From positions 1 through 30,549 of IMG/VR virus record IMGVR_UViG_3300021425_000117: a stretch of 30,549 bases of DNA; one strand, 5' to 3'. Each line of letters begins with the position of its first letter. Positions within the stretch are counted from its first letter, which is position 1. The stretch comes from a virus. The position numbers and the translations under genes are program-made. The notes under the pieces were generated by a model, which saw nothing but the letters and a program-made list of their open reading frames with translations, was not told the DNA's origin and ran no database searches. This document shows positions 16,316 through 30,549 of the stretch, piece after piece.

Positions 16316-16671
16316 TAGAATGGAATATCATCATCTGCTTCATTAGCAGCATGATGTTCCTGCAACCTCTTGGACGCATTCCTATCTATCCTATGAGGTA
16401 CTCCGTTAGTTCCCTGCTTTACTGCGTATGGAACCTGCGGAATAAGGGAATAGAATGTTTTGCCAGCCTTACTAACAAACTTCCAAGCAGCAACCTCCAC
16501 CCTAAGCTCCTGTCCAGCCTCAGCAGCCGTGACAAGATAATCAAGGATCTCCGCATTAAGGTTCACATAACCCTGCAGCAATGGCTTCTTATCATTAGGA
16601 TCATTCACATCTTTACGTTCATTGCGGAATAGTTTACCAAAATCTTCATATTGTTTTGTAGGCATATTCAT
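16315..16671 (-). CDS. Putative single-stranded DNA-binding protein, 118 aa
   Basis: The last six residues, DDDIPF, are identical to the C-terminal tip that bacterial SSB proteins use to recruit partner proteins, and they follow an acidic, disordered tail. The body (residues 25-95) is beta-rich: VNLNAEILDYLV, LRVEVAAWKFVSKAGKTFYSLIP. This is compatible with a small OB-like fold but is not classical SSB by sequence. It sits directly after the ERF annealing gene, the place where phage recombination operons often carry an SSB. The start may be 16671 (ATGA coupling) or 16665, which has GGAG at better spacing. I infer it coats ssDNA and recruits recombination or host repair proteins. Confidence 0.7.
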   Translation of the reverse strand: MNMPTKQYEDFGKLFRNERKDVNDPNDKKPLLQGYVNLNAEILDYLVTAAEAGQELRVEVAAWKFVSKAGKTFYSLIPQVPYAVKQGTNGVPHRIDRNASKRLQEHHAANEADDDIPF

Positions 16672-17441
16672 TCTCCGGTTTGGGCCGCTTTACGACCGGG
16701 CTTTTTATCCATAATGGCAAGATAGCATGATGTATATAGCTCTTCATCATGTTGCTTCATAGCTTGCATTGTGTCCTGATTGTTAGTCCACAATTGCTTG
16801 ATATCAGGCCATCTATGAATTTCTGCAAATGTTTTGACAATAGTTGCGGTGGATTGCCATCCAGCCTCTGTAGCAGGCACAGGCAGGATTGTATCAGGAT
16901 CTACAGTTTCCCTAGTAGGAGTGTCTACAGCCTGTACAGCAAGCTCTGTGATGCTCTCAGGGGCCTTTAAAGGGCGAGTCAGTACCTCCTTAACCGATAC
17001 CTTTTCCGGCACCACTTCATTGCCAACTCCTGAATGAACCTCTGGATCATCACCAGTTTCAATCTGAAATAGCTTGAAGAGAAGATACTTATTAGCTCCA
17101 GTCAGGGCTTTGTACACACCCTTGTCTCCAACCATACCATTCTTAGCACGATCATTTCCACAACCAGCCATACGAATCTTCTCAGGCCACACATCACCGT
17201 TCTTGTGAACCAGTGTGTATTCTACCTGAATTGTAGTGTTACCAAAATCATCAATCTGTTCTACTTGTGACACACTAGGAATAAGGATTAGTCCTTCCTC
17301 AATCATAGCTGGTCGCAACACAGCCAGAAGGTCAGCTTCTCCTGCATAGTTGTATCTATGGAAATCGTTTGTTTGTCCCTTCTGCACATAAGAAACCTTA
17401 GTCATAATGTTGTGCAGTGCGGTAGCGATTGTCTTGCTCAT
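16668..17441 (-). CDS. erf: ERF-family single-strand annealing protein, 257 aa
   Basis: The N-terminal two thirds match the ERF family: helix MSKTIATALHNIMTKV, F-H-R-Y-N-Y-A near residue 30, LRPAMIEEGLIL near 43-54, a V-x-Y-T-L strand, and the diagnostic ALTGANKYLLFKLFQIETG near 112-130. ERF proteins anneal complementary ssDNA, rebuild or circularise phage genomes and stimulate recombination. The C-terminal third is Pro/Thr/Val-rich and probably a linker before a small helical end. It overlaps the RecB-like nuclease upstream and the SSB-like gene downstream by ATGA, giving an exonuclease-annealase-SSB set. Length is within the family's range. Confidence 0.92.
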   Translation of the reverse strand: MSKTIATALHNIMTKVSYVQKGQTNDFHRYNYAGEADLLAVLRPAMIEEGLILIPSVSQVEQIDDFGNTTIQVEYTLVHKNGDVWPEKIRMAGCGNDRAKNGMVGDKGVYKALTGANKYLLFKLFQIETGDDPEVHSGVGNEVVPEKVSVKEVLTRPLKAPESITELAVQAVDTPTRETVDPDTILPVPATEAGWQSTATIVKTFAEIHRWPDIKQLWTNNQDTMQAMKQHDEELYTSCYLAIMDKKPGRKAAQTGE

Positions 17442-19203: not shown

Positions 19204-19232
19204 ACGATACACCAGCCGGATTTCGATGTCAA
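19204..19232 (-). promoter_or_regulatory. Sigma70-type promoter of the leftward recombination operon
   Basis: On the minus strand TTGACA (19232-19227) is followed after 17 bases by TATCGT (19209-19204). The -35 is perfect and the -10 keeps four of six bases. The expected start is near 19197, about 40 bases before the ATG at 19159. Confidence 0.65.
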
Positions 19233-19275
19233 GAAAAAAATGAAAACCGCAGAAAACAGCCATTTTGGAGATCAA

Positions 19276-19647
19276 ATGACCAGATTCGATTTCACTATCA
19301 TGGGTGAGCCAGCATCCAAATCAAACTCACGTAGACTTGTGAGAATGAAGAATGGACGCACAGCAGTTATTAAATCACAAAAAGCTCTTGATTATCAGAA
19401 AGCATTTATAGAACAATGTACTGTACTTGACAATCTGCTTGATGGTGATCTATCAACTACTATCACTATCTATTATGCAACCAGAAGGCCAGATTTAGAT
19501 GAATCTCTAATACTGGATATAATGCAGGGGAGAATATACGAGAATGATCGCCAAATCAAAGAAAAGCATGTATTCCATAGACTTGACAAGGAGCATCCCC
19601 GAGCAGAAATATCCGTTTCTAAAATCACAGAAAAGAGCAAAAGCTGA
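19276..19647 (+). CDS. rusA: RusA-family Holliday junction resolvase, 123 aa
   Basis: Motifs: F-T-I-M-G-E-P-A-S-K-S-N-S-R-R near residues 6-20, IKSQKALDY near 32-40, then RRPDLDESLILD with acidic residues at 73, 75 and 81, and IYENDRQIKEKH with D91. These are the metal-binding aspartates and the basic 'D-x-x-x-x-K' tail of RusA. RusA cuts four-way junctions symmetrically. In phages it resolves recombination intermediates before packaging. I chose the ATG at 19276, which has GGAG five to six bases upstream, over one at 19240 with no ribosome site; length is then normal for the family. It is divergent from the recombination operon. Confidence 0.92.
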   Translation: MTRFDFTIMGEPASKSNSRRLVRMKNGRTAVIKSQKALDYQKAFIEQCTVLDNLLDGDLSTTITIYYATRRPDLDESLILDIMQGRIYENDRQIKEKHVFHRLDKEHPRAEISVSKITEKSKS

Positions 19648-19675
19648 AGGTTCCAATGTATGGGTTGAGGAGTTA

Positions 19676-19993
19676 ATGCATACTAACTACACAGAAACCA
19701 AAGAAGCATCTTTATGGCGTGCGGTTTTGTGTAGGGCTGTTATTGATGCTGCCTCTGGCAGTGGTGCCGAAAAGCTAGAGGTAGCACAGTGGGTTGAAGA
19801 TAAGGATTCAACAGATGATTTCAACACTGTATGTCATTTTTGCGGTGTTGATAATGATTTTATGTCAAGAGTGTTTGCTAGTATCTTAACAGCGCCGGAG
19901 GCAGTAGCGTCTGTACTATCCAATCAGGTTCGTTCAGCTATTATGTCATATGATGGTGGTGCATTGAAGAAGATATTTGACGGGGATATGTGA
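19676..19993 (+). CDS. Conserved phage protein of unknown function, 105 aa
   Basis: The product has an N-terminal helix ASLWRAVLCRAVIDAAS, an AQWVEDKDSTDDFNTVC segment and a CHFCGVDNDFMSRVF helix. Proteins with 'W-A-V---A--DA' followed by 'A-W----DF--VC--AG-D---V' recur in phage genomes, usually beside replication or recombination genes; none has a known function to me. The ATG at 19676 has GAGGAG just upstream. The open frame extends further left, but only across the end of the RusA gene. The two cysteines C-x-x-C near the middle may bind metal but no second pair is evident. Confidence 0.65.
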   Translation: MHTNYTETKEASLWRAVLCRAVIDAASGSGAEKLEVAQWVEDKDSTDDFNTVCHFCGVDNDFMSRVFASILTAPEAVASVLSNQVRSAIMSYDGGALKKIFDGDM

Positions 19994-19997
19994 TCTC

Positions 19998-20011
19998 CGC
20001 GCGCGCGCGCG
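19998..20011. repeat. (CG)7 alternating tract
   Basis: Fourteen bases of strict CG alternation lie in the 22-base gap between convergent gene ends, in otherwise AT-rich DNA. It is fully self-complementary and is followed on the plus strand by TTCTTT. It could form a terminator hairpin for the rightward gene, or Z-DNA. Confidence 0.6.
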
Positions 20012-20015
20012 TTCT

Positions 20016-20276
20016 TTACAATGGCAGCGTGCCGGAAGTGGCGTCTGTTTCTTCTGGCCAATAATTAGTTTTATCTCCTCTTGTGGCTAAATGCTCTAAT
20101 GCTGTTACATCATGTTCGTTTCGATCTATTGTTTCCATTATTTTTCTGATATCATCAATATGCATAATCGCTAATTTAGTTGTTAGTGCATCTAACATCC
20201 AATGAGTACCAGAAGTATTGTCTAAATAATTTACATAAAATCTAATAAGATCATATCGAGACTTTATCCATTTCAT
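20016..20276 (-). CDS. Hypothetical protein, 86 aa
   Basis: Not recognised. The ATG at 20276 has AAAGG seven bases upstream. The product is mostly helical (KWIKSRYDLIRFYVNYL, then LTTKLAIMHIDDIRKIMETI), with a disordered acidic end. No cysteines or known motif are visible. It is the only leftward gene between rightward ones and faces away from the CTTACT repeat array. The minus-strand promoter at 20474-20502 would transcribe through the whole array before reaching it, so its expression and the array are probably linked. A regulator or replication accessory protein is possible but unproven. Confidence 0.55.
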   Translation of the reverse strand: MKWIKSRYDLIRFYVNYLDNTSGTHWMLDALTTKLAIMHIDDIRKIMETIDRNEHDVTALEHLATRGDKTNYWPEETDATSGTLPL

Positions 20277-20296
20277 TAAGAAGCACCTTTCAAATT

Positions 20297-20468
20297 AAAG
20301 TAAGAGAAGATCTCTTACTTAAAGTAAGAAATCATATCTTACTTTATTTCTTCTTTTTTCTTCTCTTACTTTTTTTCTTCTCTTACTTTCTTTTCTTTTT
20401 TTTGTTTTCTTACTTTTTTTCTTCTCTTACTTTCTTGATTAGTAAGAAAAGAACTCTCTTCTTACTAA
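20297..20468. repeat. Array of ten CTTACT/AGTAAG repeats in a polypyrimidine tract (origin or operator candidate)
   Basis: CTTACT occurs at 20314, 20338, 20365, 20382, 20409, 20426 and 20461 and its complement AGTAAG at 20299, 20323 and 20441, nearly always inside a longer TCTTACTTT-like unit. Two perfect 10-bp inverted pairs are AAGTAAGAGA/TCTCTTACTT (20298-20320, 3-base gap) and TTAGTAAGAA/TTCTTACTAA (20439-20468, 10-base gap). Between 20345 and 20440 the plus strand is almost pure T and C. This fills most of the 366-base gap before the primase-helicase gene; the remaining part, 20503-20642, is AT-rich with nothing else named. Confidence 0.8.
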
Positions 20469-20473
20469 TTATA

Positions 20474-20502
20474 GACATATCACGTTTCGAGACCTGTGTC
20501 AA
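20474..20502 (-). promoter_or_regulatory. Sigma70-type promoter reading leftward through the repeat array
   Basis: On the minus strand TTGACA (20502-20497), a 17-base spacer and TATGTC (20479-20474). A TATAAT-like string lies just downstream at too long a spacing. Transcription would start near 20467, giving a leader of about 190 bases that contains the array before the ATG at 20276. Confidence 0.5.
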
Positions 20503-20642
20503 GATGAAAATTGCCAGAAAATTGAGAAAATACCAAGAAAATGGTATGTTCTTGATTTTTCTCGACATTTTTTTCACAAAAAGATTTCTTGCTTCCGGCA
20601 CCAAAATATGGTTGATTGCCGGGACCAAACGACGGAGGTGCT

Positions 20643-22403
20643 ATGACGATTGAGAAGCTAATCAGCAAATTTTCACATGGACAACACAGGACAGTTTGCC
20701 CGTTTTGTTCACCACACAGAAAACCTATTCACAAGCGAGAAAAATGTCTATCTATCGACGTACAACCAAACAAAGTTTTATGGAATTGTCACCATTGCGG
20801 TGAGACAGGGATGAATAAATTGACAGAAACGGTGTTCTCTTCCGGCACAAAAGCCGATCCAACAGCAGCAACTGAGTATTTCCTGAAAAGAGGTATATCA
20901 CAGATCACCATTGATGAGTGTGGTGTTTCTGCAATGAATAAATATATCAATGTAGCTGGGAAAGAGGTGGCTTGCATTGCTTTTCCATATTACAACCAAG
21001 ACGGGAATAAAGAAGCTGTAAAATTCCGATCAATCAACGGTAAAGGATTCTCATGCGAGGGTTCTCCTAAAGGGTTATGGAGAATTGAAACATATGTAGA
21101 GGGCGATATATGGATTACCGAAGGAGAGATTGATGCAATGTCTCTCGTTCAGGCTGGGATTGATAATGCATTTAGTATCCCCAATGGTGTGCCGGGGAAA
21201 CCTACCAAGGGTTACTCAGAAGATGCCTTTGGATGGCTCTGGAGCGCTCAGGAGGCGATTAAATCAGCGGAGAGGGTGATTATCTGTGGTGACAATGATG
21301 AGCCCGGTAGAGCCTGCTCTGAGGAGATTGCAAGGCGGGTTGGAAGGGATAAATGTTGGAGGGTTGTGCTACCTGAAAACATCAAGGATCTCAACGAAGC
21401 CCTTGTGAAGCTTGGAAACGCCGAATTTAGGAGGCTTATTGGTCGAATAGAGCCTTGGCCAGTATCAGGATTGTATGATGCAGGACATTTTTATGAGGAT
21501 ATTCAAAAAATCCGCAAAGAAGGGCTTGATAAAGGCGTTAGCACTGGTTATAGTGGTGTAGATAAGATATACCGCATTGGATCTGGTATGTTATCGGTTG
21601 TCACTGGTAATCCTAGTGCGGGTAAATCGGAATTTGTTGATCAAATCATGTGTAATATAGCTGAAAGAGAAGATTGGAAGTTTGCATTATGTTCTTTTGA
21701 GAATGATCCTCGATTTCATATCACAAAATTGATTTCAAAGCGTTTGAGATCAAGTTTTTGGGAAAATCAGCCTACAGATGAAGATTTTAACACTGCTTTT
21801 GATTGGGTAAAACAACATTTCTCATTTTTGTATCATTCTGATGGCTCTTTGAGTGATCTAAAGAGTATTTTGGAGCGTTTAAGGGTAGCAGTAATGCGTT
21901 ATGGCATAAGAGGTGCTGTAATTGATCCATATAACTATATTATGAAAGAAAAAGGTCTATCTGAAACAGATTGGATCAGTCAGATGCTTACAGAGATCAA
22001 AACATTCTGTATGGCACATGATGTTCATGTATGGTTTGTTGCTCACCCGACCAAACCGGCTTCCAGAGGCCAAGATGGTAAGCCTCCGATGCCAAAGGGA
22101 TATGATATATCAGGTTCAGCGGCTTGGTGGGCTAAAGCAGATCAGGGTATCACAGTACATAGGGATTCTGATCAACCAAACCTAACTCTGATTAATATAT
22201 GGAAAATGAGATTTGCATGGCTTGGAGCAGAAGGTAGTTCAGTTTTAGAATATCATCCAAAGCAATCCATATTCACTGAGGGTGAGTCACTTGATTTTGA
22301 TCCTACTATCATAACTGGTACTGAGTATGACGCAGACCACACAGACTTTGAGGCCGAACTAAAGAAGCTGCAATTAGAGGCCGAAATTACATACGCAGCG
22401 TAA
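20643..22403 (+). CDS. T7 gp4-like DNA primase-helicase, 586 aa
   Basis: Domains in order: a zinc-binding module with C19, C22, C49 and C52; a Toprim primase core with E160-G-E162 and D217-N-D219; and a RecA-type DnaB/gp4 helicase with Walker A G322-NPSAG-K328-S, a hydrophobic strand and acidic residue in GAVIDPYNYI, and a FVAHPTKP strand near residue 475. The size is close to T7 gp4 (566 residues). One polypeptide therefore unwinds the fork and makes primers. The ATG at 20643 has GGAGG upstream and is preferred over an earlier in-frame ATG at 20616. No DNA polymerase gene is seen nearby. The repeat array upstream is the obvious place to look for the origin it serves. Confidence 0.95.
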   Translation: MTIEKLISKFSHGQHRTVCPFCSPHRKPIHKREKCLSIDVQPNKVLWNCHHCGETGMNKLTETVFSSGTKADPTAATEYFLKRGISQITIDECGVSAMNKYINVAGKEVACIAFPYYNQDGNKEAVKFRSINGKGFSCEGSPKGLWRIETYVEGDIWITEGEIDAMSLVQAGIDNAFSIPNGVPGKPTKGYSEDAFGWLWSAQEAIKSAERVIICGDNDEPGRACSEEIARRVGRDKCWRVVLPENIKDLNEALVKLGNAEFRRLIGRIEPWPVSGLYDAGHFYEDIQKIRKEGLDKGVSTGYSGVDKIYRIGSGMLSVVTGNPSAGKSEFVDQIMCNIAEREDWKFALCSFENDPRFHITKLISKRLRSSFWENQPTDEDFNTAFDWVKQHFSFLYHSDGSLSDLKSILERLRVAVMRYGIRGAVIDPYNYIMKEKGLSETDWISQMLTEIKTFCMAHDVHVWFVAHPTKPASRGQDGKPPMPKGYDISGSAAWWAKADQGITVHRDSDQPNLTLINIWKMRFAWLGAEGSSVLEYHPKQSIFTEGESLDFDPTIITGTEYDADHTDFEAELKKLQLEAEITYAA

Positions 22404-23567: not shown

Positions 23568-23999
23568 TTATCCTTTATGAACAAGAGCTTGATGATATTC
23601 ACACCATGACCCTATAGGTGAAGCTGACCTATTCCCACAAAACAAATGGACAGAAGCATCATCTGGTGTTGTGGGATATCTACAGGTGGATGGCTTAAGA
23701 TCTAATATACCAACCTCCAAAGACACGGGTATAGGTATGTCTATAACTTTGCGCTTAACAGGTGTAGCTGGAAACTTAACATTGCGCGTGGAGTTTTTCT
23801 TAATATATCTTTTGATTTTCCTATCGTTGCCCCTAGGTGCGCGCGCTGGCCATTTCTGCCTATGCCACATACCAATCACTGAGTTCCTAGTACGTCCCGG
23901 TAAAGTATCGGCTATTACTTGAGCGGAAGCACCATTATCAAATAGCTCTCTAGCAATTTTCAATTCAAGAGAAGTCCAAGGATTGTCAACTGTTTTCAT
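23568..23999 (-). CDS. gcrA: GcrA-family transcription regulator, 143 aa
   Basis: The N-terminal helix-turn-helix (residues 8-50; SAQVIADTLPGRTRNSVIGM, then a W-H-R) matches GcrA, whose typical form is 'SA-IA--LG--TRNAVIGK-HR'. A basic linker (56-85) leads to the C-terminal module C106RYP, F-C121-G and W-C133-E-Y-H, also typical of GcrA. Cellular GcrA of Caulobacter is about 173 residues, so this is somewhat short. GcrA binds sigma70 and activates promoters near CcrM-methylated GANTC sites. A phage copy could divert host RNA polymerase to phage genes or disturb the cell cycle. Start at 23999 has GGAGG upstream. A consensus extended -10 promoter lies just before it. Confidence 0.9.
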   Translation of the reverse strand: MKTVDNPWTSLELKIARELFDNGASAQVIADTLPGRTRNSVIGMWHRQKWPARAPRGNDRKIKRYIKKNSTRNVKFPATPVKRKVIDIPIPVSLEVGILDLKPSTCRYPTTPDDASVHLFCGNRSASPIGSWCEYHQALVHKG

Positions 24000-24038
24000 T
24001 TGATCCTCCATAGGTGATGGGAATAAATCCCACCACCC

Positions 24039-24047
24039 ATTATACCA
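24039..24047 (-). promoter_or_regulatory. Extended -10 promoter before gcrA
   Basis: On the minus strand TGG directly precedes a perfect TATAAT (24047-24039). No good -35 box is seen at 16-18 bases. The wider string AGTGTGGTATAAT resembles the terminase promoter at 29489-29501 (AGTGTGGTATACT). Start expected near 24032, about 33 bases before the gcrA ATG. Confidence 0.6.
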
Positions 24048-24049
24048 CA

Positions 24050-24157
24050 CTAACGGTTATGTCGTAGCTTATTGTACTTAATATGTGGCTGTCCGTTTCT
24101 CATAACTCTGGAAATAACGGCAACCATTTTACCATTCTGGTATAGGTAAGATCCCAT
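24050..24157 (-). CDS. Possible 35-residue micro-protein
   Basis: An ATG shares a base with the stop of the 251-residue gene (TAATG) and opens a 35-codon frame, MGSYLYQNGKMVAVISRVMR and then a basic end, stopping at TAG. It fills most of the gap before gcrA, and TAATG coupling is used elsewhere in this genome. It is basic, has no cysteine and no recognisable motif. Its end lies close to the extended -10 promoter of gcrA, so the gene would be read only from the upstream transcript. Confidence 0.35.
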   Translation of the reverse strand: MGSYLYQNGKMVAVISRVMRNGQPHIKYNKLRHNR

Positions 24158-24960: not shown

Positions 24961-24993
24961 GATGGTAACATATATGTTACTAAAGTTAATCAG
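24960..24993 (-). promoter_or_regulatory. 34-bp dyad element, copy 2
   Basis: It matches 13825-13858 at 32 of 34 bases. Here the centre GTAACATATATGTTAC (24965-24980) is a perfect 16-bp palindrome. Its upper end covers the last codons of the VWA gene and its lower end is 47 bases before the ATG at 24912. Position and orientation relative to the downstream gene match copy 1, supporting a regulatory role. Confidence 0.65.
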
Positions 24994-26104
24994 CGGGGAT
25001 TTTAATCACCTCCCCAAAAGGAGCCTCCTCGCTACCGGTAGTGGCCCACAATACAGGGTAGTTAGGGGCAATACCAGCTAGATCACTGTGATCTATATAC
25101 AAATCAGTAAAAAAGATTAAGGAATCAGGTTGAATACCCTGATCTTCAACCCACTTAAACACAGGTGCTAAGTTAGTGCCACCGCAGGCATACCTACGCT
25201 TATCATCGAATTCCTCATCAGCCTCATAAGTTTGTGTATGGGCAATTACAGTATCGCACCATACAACATGAGTCTTATATGGCTTCAACTCATTGTGTAT
25301 GTGACGCAAGTTACCAAGGAACTTAGACAATTCAACCTTACTCACTGACCCACTGGAATCAATACCAATCACAATTTCACCGGGACATTTATAATCAACC
25401 ATAGGAACACAAGCACCCTGATAAACTGCATAGATAGAATTAAACCTACGATAACTCCAATCATCAGGATTAGTGCCGCCGATAAATGTTTGCATACGCT
25501 CCTCCCAATCAATAGAAGGTTTGGAATATTCATCAATTAATCCATCAAAGCCTTGTGGCATTTTACCATGAGCTTTAGCAGATTGTGCAGCCTGTAATAC
25601 ACTCACCTTAATGTTAGCTTCTTCCATAGATGTTTTAGCTGCATCACCTACTGATTCGCTATCTTCTACCATACCCCATTCACAAGGTTGACGGCGTTTA
25701 GCCTCCTCTTCTATTTCGGGTTGATTATATATCTTCTCAGCAGTCCAGCCTCTATATTTCTCATCAATCAACCCACCTTCAGGCAATTTAAAGCCATTAT
25801 CAACCAACATAACATTGATTGCATAATCACAGGCAATGTTCCATCTAACGGGATCTCTATCGCCGCGCCTTAGATGGTGGAGAAAGGCAATGTGCATAAC
25901 CTCATGCGCCATAACCCCAACAACTTCTTCCTTAGTTAAGGAGTTTACCCATTCTTCGTGATACCAGATATATTTACCGTCAGTAGCCATAGTATATACA
26001 CCAGCTTTTTGACTGGATGGATACCGCATAGCTAATGACCCAAAGAAAGGATGTGAAGTAATAAGCTTCACCTTAGCTAATGTTATGTTGTCATATTTAG
26101 CCAT
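24986..26104 (-). CDS. VWA-domain protein with zincin-type metallopeptidase domain, 372 aa
   Basis: N-terminal metallopeptidase-like domain: AHEVMHIAFLHH with H67-E68-x-x-H71, followed by RWNIACDYAINVML, typical of the putative metallopeptidase that accompanies VWA domains (DUF2201/PF13203-like). C-terminal VWA-like domain: MIDAS residues D249-x-S251-x-S253 in GIDSSGSV, T310 in CGGTNL and D334 in FFTD. The segment between (residues 130-200) is charged and probably a linker. VWA proteins paired with MoxR ATPases act as adaptors for remodelling target proteins, and here a protease-like domain is fused. The gene is third after the MoxR-like and partner genes, spaced 12 bases, with GGAG upstream. 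Cellular target unknown. Confidence 0.88.
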   Translation of the reverse strand: MAKYDNITLAKVKLITSHPFFGSLAMRYPSSQKAGVYTMATDGKYIWYHEEWVNSLTKEEVVGVMAHEVMHIAFLHHLRRGDRDPVRWNIACDYAINVMLVDNGFKLPEGGLIDEKYRGWTAEKIYNQPEIEEEAKRRQPCEWGMVEDSESVGDAAKTSMEEANIKVSVLQAAQSAKAHGKMPQGFDGLIDEYSKPSIDWEERMQTFIGGTNPDDWSYRRFNSIYAVYQGACVPMVDYKCPGEIVIGIDSSGSVSKVELSKFLGNLRHIHNELKPYKTHVVWCDTVIAHTQTYEADEEFDDKRRYACGGTNLAPVFKWVEDQGIQPDSLIFFTDLYIDHSDLAGIAPNYPVLWATTGSEEAPFGEVIKIPAD

Positions 26105-26116
26105 AGTTCTTATCTC

Positions 26117-27010
26117 CTATGCTGCCAGCAAACTATTGATATATTTAGCCATATCGTCAGCCTTCTGAGCTATGGCATCACGCTCCCACTTAGACTCCTT
26201 CAATTCATCAGCACCCATTGAACAAAGATCCTCCTTAATCTTCTCGCTAAGGCTATCTAGCTCAGGGTCTTTAGCTATATTAAGAAATGGCAAGGTGTTA
26301 GCTAGTTCATTCATGTTTGTGATAAGGGATTTCCTAAAGTTACCCTTGAATGTACCGCGCTTATGATCATCAGGTTTCTCATAAGCGAGAAGCCTATCCC
26401 GCATATCTTCAATAGCATCCAACGCCCTGATAAATGCAGCCTTAGATGCTGAGCCTAGTGTATCCCTAACCTCCTCCTCAATATCGGATCGCAATGCGTC
26501 CATGTTATCGCTATCCAGATCCAATATCCAGTTACTAGCTTCCGGCATTGGGTAATATTTAATGTCAAAGTAAAAGGCATTAAGGATTTCCTGAGTGCCG
26601 GGAAACTCATGCTCCTTCCACATACTGCCTAGCTCATTGATCCTAGCACTCCTAATAGTGGGGAGAACATTACCAAGGGCTTCAACAGCAGCCTCATATT
26701 GATCTTTATATTTACCCATCTCCTCAATGTGTTTGTCAAAGCCCACTGTAGCTAGAATCCTTGGACCCTTATGAGCAAATCCCGGAAAGGTGAGGTTATA
26801 GTGGGCCATACGAGCCTGACCACTGATGTAGGTAAGATCCTTAAGATGGTGTGGTCCAATGATGTTCTTGACATATGTTCCCGCATCATTAGACGCTCCC
26901 TTATCGGTGACAACTTCCTGAGTTACATCCTTATCAACTTTCTTAGGGTTGAACGCACCGATGTTAATATCGGCAAGCATTGCACGCTCTGTAAGTTTGA
27001 AGCTAGTCAT
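26117..27010 (-). CDS. MoxR/VWA-associated protein, DUF3150-like, 297 aa
   Basis: Located between the MoxR-like ATPase and the VWA/metallopeptidase genes, the place where phage and prophage copies of this system carry a protein annotated DUF3150-like. Visible features: an N-terminal segment with LADINIGAF and KKVDKDVTQEV; an amphipathic central block GKYKDQYEAAVEALGNVL with a SARINELG turn; and long C-terminal helices ending in a basic-acidic repeat (SKWERDAIAQKADDMAKYI). No enzyme motif was seen. It may bridge the AAA+ ring and the VWA protein or be the substrate selector. Family naming rests on recall of neighbourhood and of the helical layout, so confidence in the family is moderate. Confidence 0.7.
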   Translation of the reverse strand: MTSFKLTERAMLADINIGAFNPKKVDKDVTQEVVTDKGASNDAGTYVKNIIGPHHLKDLTYISGQARMAHYNLTFPGFAHKGPRILATVGFDKHIEEMGKYKDQYEAAVEALGNVLPTIRSARINELGSMWKEHEFPGTQEILNAFYFDIKYYPMPEASNWILDLDSDNMDALRSDIEEEVRDTLGSASKAAFIRALDAIEDMRDRLLAYEKPDDHKRGTFKGNFRKSLITNMNELANTLPFLNIAKDPELDSLSEKIKEDLCSMGADELKESKWERDAIAQKADDMAKYINSLLAA

Positions 27011-27032
27011 TGTGTAGTTCCTTTATGTTAAA

Positions 27033-28091
27033 CTATTCACCAAGAATAAGATCACGACCGTTAGTGGCAAGCCATTTAGTGCCTTCCTTAGTAGCAGTCA
27101 GCGTCTTGTCACGGGTAAAAGCATCCTTCATCAACAGCATACCCCATTCACCGGGCATCCTAGCTGCATATTGAAGGATAGCACCAATATTCTTTCTGTT
27201 CATGTAAACACTAAGCATACCAATCACGGCATACAAAAGATCTGGCCTATCTGTGCCGAAGATAGGTGCATTATCAGGGTCATTAACAATGCTCTCAGGA
27301 CGGGGTAGATCTTGATATACCTGACGGAATCCTTGAAAGGCTCCAGCAGGGCCAGCCCCTATCTGTCCGGCAATGCAAGCCATTTCACCATACTGACTAA
27401 GTCCCATCTTGATAATCTCACTAACCTTAGTCCATGAGCGCTGAGTAGCGTTCTTATCCAATGCAGGGTCAAAGTTATTCCATTCGGCTTGAGCAAACTG
27501 TAGGTATGCCGTCACCATAGGATGCACACCATTAGCTTTGGCCATTTCAACCCATTCTTTAAAATCAGGCTGAATGAATAGATCAGTGGTGCGATCACGG
27601 ATCTGACTAGGTGTTGCGGTAGTGCCAGCTTTAGCTGATGCCGGATTAGATGCCAGCATCAATGTGGCGCAATCACTGAGTTGATATGGACCCATCTTAT
27701 GCTCATTAAGGGCTTCACCCATAATGTTCTTAGCCATGAGGCTACATTGTGCCCATTCATCAAACAGGATAAGCCATTTACCCTCAGTCTTGAGCCAATC
27801 AGGTTTGTTGGTATACATTTCTCTAGCAGCTTCATCAAAGAACTGCATACCCCCGATAACAATTGGATCCATCTGAGTTAAACAACGTGAATAAAACTCC
27901 ACACCAGCTTTCTTAGCTGCGCTCTTACTCATCGCAGTTTTACCAATACCCGGATCACCAATCAACTGAAGGACAATCCTATCCCGCCATCCCTTAATGG
28001 GGTTTTCTGCGAGGTGATTATTATACTCAATAGCACCAAGAATAATCTCTTCAGCCTGCTTGATGGTGACATTCCAAGTGTTATTAGACAT
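27033..28091 (-). CDS. MoxR-like AAA+ ATPase, 352 aa
   Basis: Walker A at G45-DPGIG-K51-T52, Walker B LILF-D111-E112, sensor-1 LMLASN149 and RDR (165-167) as arginine-finger candidates place it in the MoxR branch of AAA+ ATPases. These proteins form hexamers and act with VWA proteins to mature or remodel other proteins using ATP. The size and the C-terminal alpha-helical lid (residues 230-340) fit. It is followed by its two partners with short gaps and similar ribosome sites (AAGGAACTA before both this and the next gene), so the three are expressed together. In this phage it could remodel the host transcription or replication machinery or a virion part. Confidence 0.92.
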   Translation of the reverse strand: MSNNTWNVTIKQAEEIILGAIEYNNHLAENPIKGWRDRIVLQLIGDPGIGKTAMSKSAAKKAGVEFYSRCLTQMDPIVIGGMQFFDEAAREMYTNKPDWLKTEGKWLILFDEWAQCSLMAKNIMGEALNEHKMGPYQLSDCATLMLASNPASAKAGTTATPSQIRDRTTDLFIQPDFKEWVEMAKANGVHPMVTAYLQFAQAEWNNFDPALDKNATQRSWTKVSEIIKMGLSQYGEMACIAGQIGAGPAGAFQGFRQVYQDLPRPESIVNDPDNAPIFGTDRPDLLYAVIGMLSVYMNRKNIGAILQYAARMPGEWGMLLMKDAFTRDKTLTATKEGTKWLATNGRDLILGE

Positions 28092-29594: not shown

Positions 29595-30155
29595 ATGGAT
29601 GAAACAAAGAAACCATCCTTCACAGTGATTGAAGGAGGTATATCAATTGATAATAAAAATAACCATATCAGAACAGAAAAAGATCATCCCAACAAGGGTA
29701 ATGCAGGTAAAGGCAAGATCAGGAATGAATATGGATGCACTGAGAAGGAAGAAGCATTTTGTCAGCTATTAGCAGTTGGGGATAAGCCAATGGTGGAATG
29801 CTATAAAGCTGTTTATGATGTTAAAACAACCAATATGAATAGTTTATACAGGATGGCTAACACAGTCTGGAGCAGGGATCATGTAAAATCACGAGTGAAA
29901 GAGCTAAAGGGGGATATAAAGAAGGATGCAAGGCTTGATGCCGTACAAACGATGAACTTTATCATCGACAGACTATGGATAGAAGCTAAGGATTCCGCCA
30001 ATCGCGCTAGTGAACGCCTTAAAGCTATCGAACTACTTGGTAAGCTAGAACATATAGGTGCTTTCCGTGAACGCAGTGAGGTTATTACTAAAGAAGCTAG
30101 TACACCTGATGCTATCAAGGCTCGTATTGAGGAATTGATGCAGAAGGTGAGTTAG
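29595..30155 (+). CDS. Terminase small subunit, 186 aa
   Basis: After a disordered basic start (residues 1-45) comes CTEKEEAFCQLLAVGDKPM, then a CYKAVY helix, SLYRMANTVW and DHVKSRVKELKGD: the arrangement of small terminases, with an N-terminal helix-turn-helix for DNA binding followed by helices for oligomer formation. The C-terminal part (ALDAVQT-like helix, ERLKAIELLGKLEHIGAF, ERSE) matches the family closely. Small terminases form rings that recognise the packaging site and feed DNA to the large subunit. The large subunit should be downstream, but the next 390 bases show no gene. The gene has its own promoter and structured leader. Confidence 0.9.
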   Translation: MDETKKPSFTVIEGGISIDNKNNHIRTEKDHPNKGNAGKGKIRNEYGCTEKEEAFCQLLAVGDKPMVECYKAVYDVKTTNMNSLYRMANTVWSRDHVKSRVKELKGDIKKDARLDAVQTMNFIIDRLWIEAKDSANRASERLKAIELLGKLEHIGAFRERSEVITKEASTPDAIKARIEELMQKVS

Positions 30156-30261: not shown

Positions 30262-30549
30262 TTTATACATAAACACAACCTATGAGTTGTAATATGCTCG
30301 AAAACACGGGTTTATACAAATGAATTACAACCATAGATATAAATTCAATCACGAATTGTTACAGTCTGTAATATATCGTATATATGTTTCTATATATATG
30401 CACCATTGAAATCATTGAATAATCCGGTTATCAATTCAATTGACACTGCTATATGTGATTCTAGTGTGGTGGTTATGGATGATGGTTAATGGAGCTTCCT
30501 TACGGGTGCGCGAGTATTGACACTGTCTTCTACTATCATAGGTCCGGCT
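30262..30549. other. AT-rich non-coding segment with small dyads after the terminase gene
   Basis: No convincing gene was found. The stretch contains GTTGTAAT with a distant ATTACAAC (arms of 8), ATTGAA repeated in tandem with period 9 near 30404-30420, TTCAAT-type dyads near 30343 and 30430, and AT runs (ATATATCGTATATAT). TTGACACTG occurs at 30440 and 30517. TTGACA at 30440 could be the -35 of a rightward promoter, but its -10 is poor; AGTGTGGT, shared with two other promoters, follows. It is a candidate packaging recognition region, or a second control region. Confidence 0.5.

Follow-up and report, generated by a model that had tools for sequence, protein, structure and literature searches.

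Phage P4 possesses a two-locus origin of replication (ori1/crr) and the alpha primase-helicase. Lambda-type operator arrays are composed of several symmetric sites at promoters. The RepA_N iterons of the phage satellite PLE are an example of an iteron-type replication origin (PMC7145576). In phi29, the phage proteins p4 and p6 act on early and late promoters via DNA sites in the early-late switch (PMC3100819).

In this study, an array of short repeats next to a primase-helicase gene was analyzed in the complete IMG/VR record IMGVR_UViG_3300021425_000117 (30,549 bp, classed as linear, probably a fragment), hereafter the window. The array occupies the place of an element found in related phages (E1), which usually have a counterpart (E2) before the large terminase. 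As in P4, the relatives combine two separated iteron-like loci with a primase-helicase as a main replication protein; however, E2 is located at the terminase, E1 is not universal and the motif is unrelated. Iterons at two separated loci were seen in the relatives and not in the window fragment. The several symmetric sites at promoters recall lambda-type operators; in contrast to those, ten half-site-like units, some in tandem, surround a low-stability core, and no repressor gene was found beside the array. Short direct repeats with internal inverted symmetry and A/T-rich DNA beside replication functions are shared with iteron-type origins such as that of PLE (PMC7145576), whereas the array described here is linked to a promoter, and the relatives have two loci per genome with the second at the terminase. 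The proposed action of a phage protein on promoters through DNA sites resembles that of phi29 p4/p6; the phi29 sites form one compact region (PMC3100819), whereas here two loci are ~11 kb apart and have many more sites.

The repeat array in the window

CTTACT or its complement AGTAAG was found ten times between 20299 and 20466, in the plus orientation at 20314, 20338, 20365, 20382, 20409, 20426, and 20461 and in the minus orientation at 20299, 20323, and 20441 (Table 1). An earlier note on this DNA had reported ten 6-base copies, seven against three in orientation; the count agrees, and all ten units share the longer form TCTTACT. The same note described two perfect 10-bp inverted pairs. The pairs are indeed perfect, but there are three of them, with arms AAGTAAGAGA/TCTCTTACTT (pair A, 20298–20321, 10 bp), TAAAGTAAGA/TCTTACTTTA (pair B, 20320–20346, 10 bp), and ATTAGTAAGAA/TTCTTACTAAT (pair C, 20438–20469, 11 bp). 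The reported run of about 95 bases nearly free of purines was recovered as the polypyrimidine tract of Table 1, and the most strand-asymmetric stretch of the window is 20347–20436 (94% pyrimidine). The 100 bp at 20320–20419 are the second least stable of the window. The location upstream of the primase-helicase was also confirmed, with the ATG (20643) 176 bp past the end of the array.

Table 1. Features of the array locus and its neighboring genes in the window.
Feature	Position	Strand	Basis or remark
RusA-like Holliday junction resolvase	19240–19647	+	conserved left neighbor
ORF149, small conserved helical protein	19544–19993	+	presence does not track E1
Terminator-like CGCGCGCGCGCGCG hairpin, 3′ of ORF149	19998–20011	+	terminator-like hairpin call
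ORF86, orphan 86-aa frame between ORF149 and array	20016–20276	−	relatives without ORF86 at this place
E1 array, ten TCTTACT units	20299–20466	both (7+/3−)	repeat counting and 8-mer clustering; putative binding sites
Inverted pair A, AGTAAG-N9-CTTACT	20299–20319	both	sequence
Inverted pair B, AGTAAG-N9-CTTACT, 24 bp from pair A	20323–20343	both	sequence
Polypyrimidine tract, 8 purines in 97 bases	20344–20440	+	base count
Tandem pair, 17 bp start to start	20365–20387	+	repeat spacing
Tandem pair, 17 bp start to start	20409–20431	+	repeat spacing
Inverted pair C, AGTAAG-N14-CTTACT	20441–20466	both	adjoins inferred start of minus-strand transcript
Putative promoter TTGACA-17-TATGTC, through array into ORF86	20474–20502	−	not listed by standard scan
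Putative promoter TTGAGA-17-TATGTT (9/12, extended −10) toward primase	20522–20550	+	promoter scan
Primase-helicase (TOPRIM and DnaB-like; PHROG 239)	20643–22403	+	domain and family matches

At most five copies of the repeat appeared when the array region was mononucleotide-shuffled locally or simulated with a first-order Markov model, and whole-window shuffles never arrived at the 27 copies of CTTACT/AGTAAG counted in the entire window. Ten copies were reached once in 5000 runs of a second-order Markov model, which was trained on the array itself. The array was also the top cluster (8 copies; next best, 3) in blind 8-mer clustering of the whole window. It is real, beyond a chance effect of base composition. 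Replication slippage in the T-rich tract could in principle have produced a non-functional repeat expansion, as suggested by the tandem units, their 17-bp period and the near-identical flanks in the core; the presence of both orientations and of exact inverted pairs, and the positional conservation of equivalent arrays in relatives with a matching second element, make this extremely improbable.

The order of the locus is RusA, ORF149, hairpin, ORF86 (minus strand), array, two divergent putative promoters, and primase-helicase. Of the two promoters, TTGACA-17-TATGTC had been noted before. Its sequence is present (20502–20474); however, the standard scan omits the site, and predicted four promoters in the array region against 6.2 in shuffles, that is, no excess. 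No relatives of ORF86 were detected in IMG/VR or sequenced phages.

Outside the locus, a promoter-like site (TTGACA-17-TATCGT, minus strand, 19204–19232) was identified in the divergent intergenic gap that precedes the recombination genes of the minus strand (exonuclease, Erf, SSB-like). Genes for a VWA-type metallopeptidase-like protein, a 297-aa protein, and a MoxR-like AAA protein are located at 24986–28091 (minus strand); relatives of the VWA-type and AAA genes are found in the same order in related phages.

Position-equivalent elements in related phages

About 66 distinct relatives with primases 30–49% identical, all of them uncultivated contigs, were compared; the records given G-numbers may be fragments. 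In the first relatives, recovered by a single-sequence search (L001, L003, L004), the primase is not preceded by a gap; two profile scans added further relatives. The closest relatives from the profile scans keep RusA, often ORF149, a gap of ~90–235 bp, and the primase. In many relatives the AT-rich E1 lies just upstream of the primase and consists of another repeat, which is specific to the clade: ACTAGTTATA, AGTACATATGTACT, AGTTCATATGAACT, ATACTAGTAT, AGTACA/TGTACT, AATCTATATAGATTAT, and others. An excess of repeats over shuffles (7-mer count) was clear in part of the relatives only; the others consist mostly of TATATA. For 46 of the 66 distinct relatives, the 60-bp stretch of lowest stability in the locus lies no more than 320 bp upstream of the primase, and this position supports the earlier claim of easily melted DNA as a property resembling an unwinding element. 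E1 is missing from many relatives with the same replication genes, and little or no gap precedes the primase in G022 and G018.

A near-consensus promoter, TTGACA-N17-TAtcgt, usually follows the gap in the relatives. With E1 (AT-core) called by stability thresholds chosen in this analysis and primase starts placed by rule, 27 of 68 loci have both E1 and a TTGAC-N17-TA promoter, 31 have neither, and 10 have one alone (shuffle rate, 2%). The center of the core is a median of 69 bp upstream of the −35 and not over the promoter. At the usual place of the near-consensus promoter in the window a weaker candidate was found instead.

Position-equivalent arrays are present in relatives, but those that keep this gene order all lack CTTACT itself. 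A pattern search of IMG/VR for tandem CTTACT arrays returned 43 hits, about the chance expectation, and the clusters that were inspected contained nothing comparable. No such array was seen in the stretches read of the cultured phages HTVC027P, HTVC023P, 023Pt_psg01, and DSL-LC04, which have related terminases, or of MinM2, whose terminase and primase are both related. Based on position, architecture, and gene order, and not on shared sequence, the array of the window appears to be a local version of the relatives' E1. A search for inverted AGTAAG pairs retrieved L290 (13893–13946) and L281, distant phages with a VWA-type gene related to that of the window; AGTAAG-N9-CTTACT and AGTAAG-N14-CTTACT, the pair geometry of the window, are present there upstream of a minus-strand operon that includes this gene.

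The window is distinguished by its polypyrimidine core (TATATA in relatives), by the insertion of ORF86 on the opposite strand, by the putative minus-strand promoter through the array, and by a plus-strand promoter weaker than that of the relatives. Among the loci read, only the window has ORF86 at this place, and pair C lies directly beside the point where the minus-strand transcript is inferred to start. These features would fit a private operator of an inserted ORF86 cassette, at which a repressor, perhaps ORF86 itself, binds at and downstream of the minus promoter and shuts ORF86 off. Such an arrangement is unlikely: relatives without ORF86 have equivalent arrays at the same place, and ORF86 has no match to a DNA-binding family and a poor structure model (pLDDT 58).

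Purine RNA on a pyrimidine template is suited to R-loops. R-loops are used at T4 origins (PMC3016281). The purine-rich minus-strand leader of the window could form hairpins or an R-loop and in this way regulate ORF86 or prime replication, and it folds more stably than shuffles (z −5.1). We regard an element acting at the RNA level as very unlikely. Low z-scores follow from any inverted repeats, so that the value obtained is the expected one and not evidence of function; moreover, the arrays of relatives have no polypyrimidine asymmetry, and no minus-strand promoter was seen in the E1 elements that were read.

The second element before the large terminase

In whole contigs of the relatives, E2 is a second low-stability repeat element ~10–12 kb from E1. 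In G001, G009, and G002 the clade motif clusters at E1 and E2 and nowhere else. Blind 8-mer clustering of whole contigs ranked E1 and E2 at or near the top in G001, G009, and G016, and E2 at the top in G002 and G022. In 18 representatives, E1 and E2 share a mean of 7.0 9-mers within a genome and 2.1 across genomes, a difference reached in 0 of 20,000 permutations; at 9 bases no shared motif was found in G004, G005, G006, G018, and G023. Downstream of E2, several relatives have a −10-like TATACT and a covarying structured leader RNA ahead of the terminase operon. Because of the −10-like sequence and the leader, E2 is probably located at a transcription start. Since the window record stops at 30549, with TerS ending at 30155, the expected site of E2 falls beyond the record end; no CTTACT cluster was seen at the right end of the window.

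The leader RNA between E2 and the terminase operon was identified near 16330–16420 in L224 (G001) and near 17230–17330 in L233 (G002), with equivalents in G004, G011, G012, G015, and G017. This conserved leader has two hairpins, the first with seven pairs, six of which show two-sided compensatory changes. The invariant loop of this hairpin (TCTCCC) is complementary to the downstream ribosome-binding site GGGAG, which suggests translation control. No Rfam match was obtained at the gathering threshold. In G022, which is without E1, five TAGACTAC units, three of them as GTCTAGACTAC, are spaced by 15–26 bp before the terminase region (L255, 2090–2185).

Transcription control and replication start as candidate functions

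A motif that differs between clades but agrees between the two loci within a genome suggests a sequence-specific protein encoded by the phage. We give about even odds (probability roughly 0.5) that the array is a multi-site binding array of such a putative DNA-binding protein, set beside the primase-helicase promoter and controlling the primase and terminase promoters. The repeats are candidate docking sites, most likely for transcription control and possibly for replication start. A single protein, probably a dimer given that most cores are palindromes, would bind cooperatively to inverted pairs and tandem half-sites. At E1 it would set the transcription of the primase-helicase and, in the window, also that of ORF86, which would start by pair C; at E2 it would set the transcription of the terminase operon. 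One protein at both elements would put the replication and packaging operons on one switch. Shared transcription control of this kind is the simplest account. The easily melted core may help to open the promoter or to bend the DNA, or may also act as an unwinding element.

Repeated, mostly palindromic sites were observed beside a promoter, clearly in the relatives and with weaker candidate promoters in the window, and the same motif recurs at a second promoter region in the relatives, a site that the window record stops short of. The second motif copy at the terminase fits an origin no better than it fits a regulatory protein shared by the two loci. Several points count against the shared array: in the relatives it is tens of bp upstream of the −35, an uncommon place for the site of a simple repressor; the window has a weaker candidate in place of the conserved promoter; CTTACT is absent from relatives with this gene order, and no cluster of it was seen at the right end of the window; and linkage to a promoter would also fit an origin that needs transcription.

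The TCTTACT units could instead be iterons for a phage initiator or for the primase-helicase, with the T-rich core melted for helicase loading and E2 serving as another origin or as a partner site that is required. This is the main rival reading, possible but less probable than transcription control. The array of short repeats is beside the primase-helicase, array and least stable DNA coincide at the same place in relatives, the 17-bp tandem spacing is typical of iterons, and an AT-rich stretch adjoins the repeats, usually the stability minimum of the locus in relatives. A strand-skew switch is a supporting, not strictly defining, feature of iteron-type origins, and the earlier note had looked to one here. 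Plain GC skew in the window follows gene strand. Fourfold-site skew does flip at E1 at the level of zones, but the flip was lost when neighbors on the same strand were compared (RusA versus primase across E1, difference −0.04 ± 0.05 in 31 loci with E1). It is best explained by gene identity, because these two genes, on the same strand on either side of E1, do not differ. E1 is furthermore absent where the replication genes are retained, tracks the promoter instead, and has its partner site at the terminase operon. A PF00476 polymerase was not found in the window or in six relatives. From the earlier alternative of an origin or multi-site repressor control, a functional binding array appears to be conserved in place, as supported by the position-equivalent arrays, while the origin is left without specific support.

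None of the candidates examined for the binding protein of the shared array tracks E1. ORF149 was set aside, having no structural match and a presence independent of E1. GcrA was rejected as a shared factor; it occurs in the window and in none of 24 related phage records. The GcrA-like cell-cycle regulator gene of the window (23568–24050, minus strand; Pfam E 2.5e-15) hints at an alphaproteobacterial host.

A broader reading, which we consider rather doubtful, is that of a two-site system in a large uncultivated group of aquatic phages. Here a single fast-evolving phage protein, together with the repeats specific to its clade, would link the start of replication at E1 to the terminase operon at E2. 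If this is true, the same complex would switch replication and packaging. No description of this element was found in the literature. It is a first candidate control element for a large, almost uncultured phage group, and it is defined by position and motif sharing, not by sequence. With E1 and E2 as paired sites, the protein can be sought directly, and the idea that a single factor connects the replication and packaging genes becomes directly testable.
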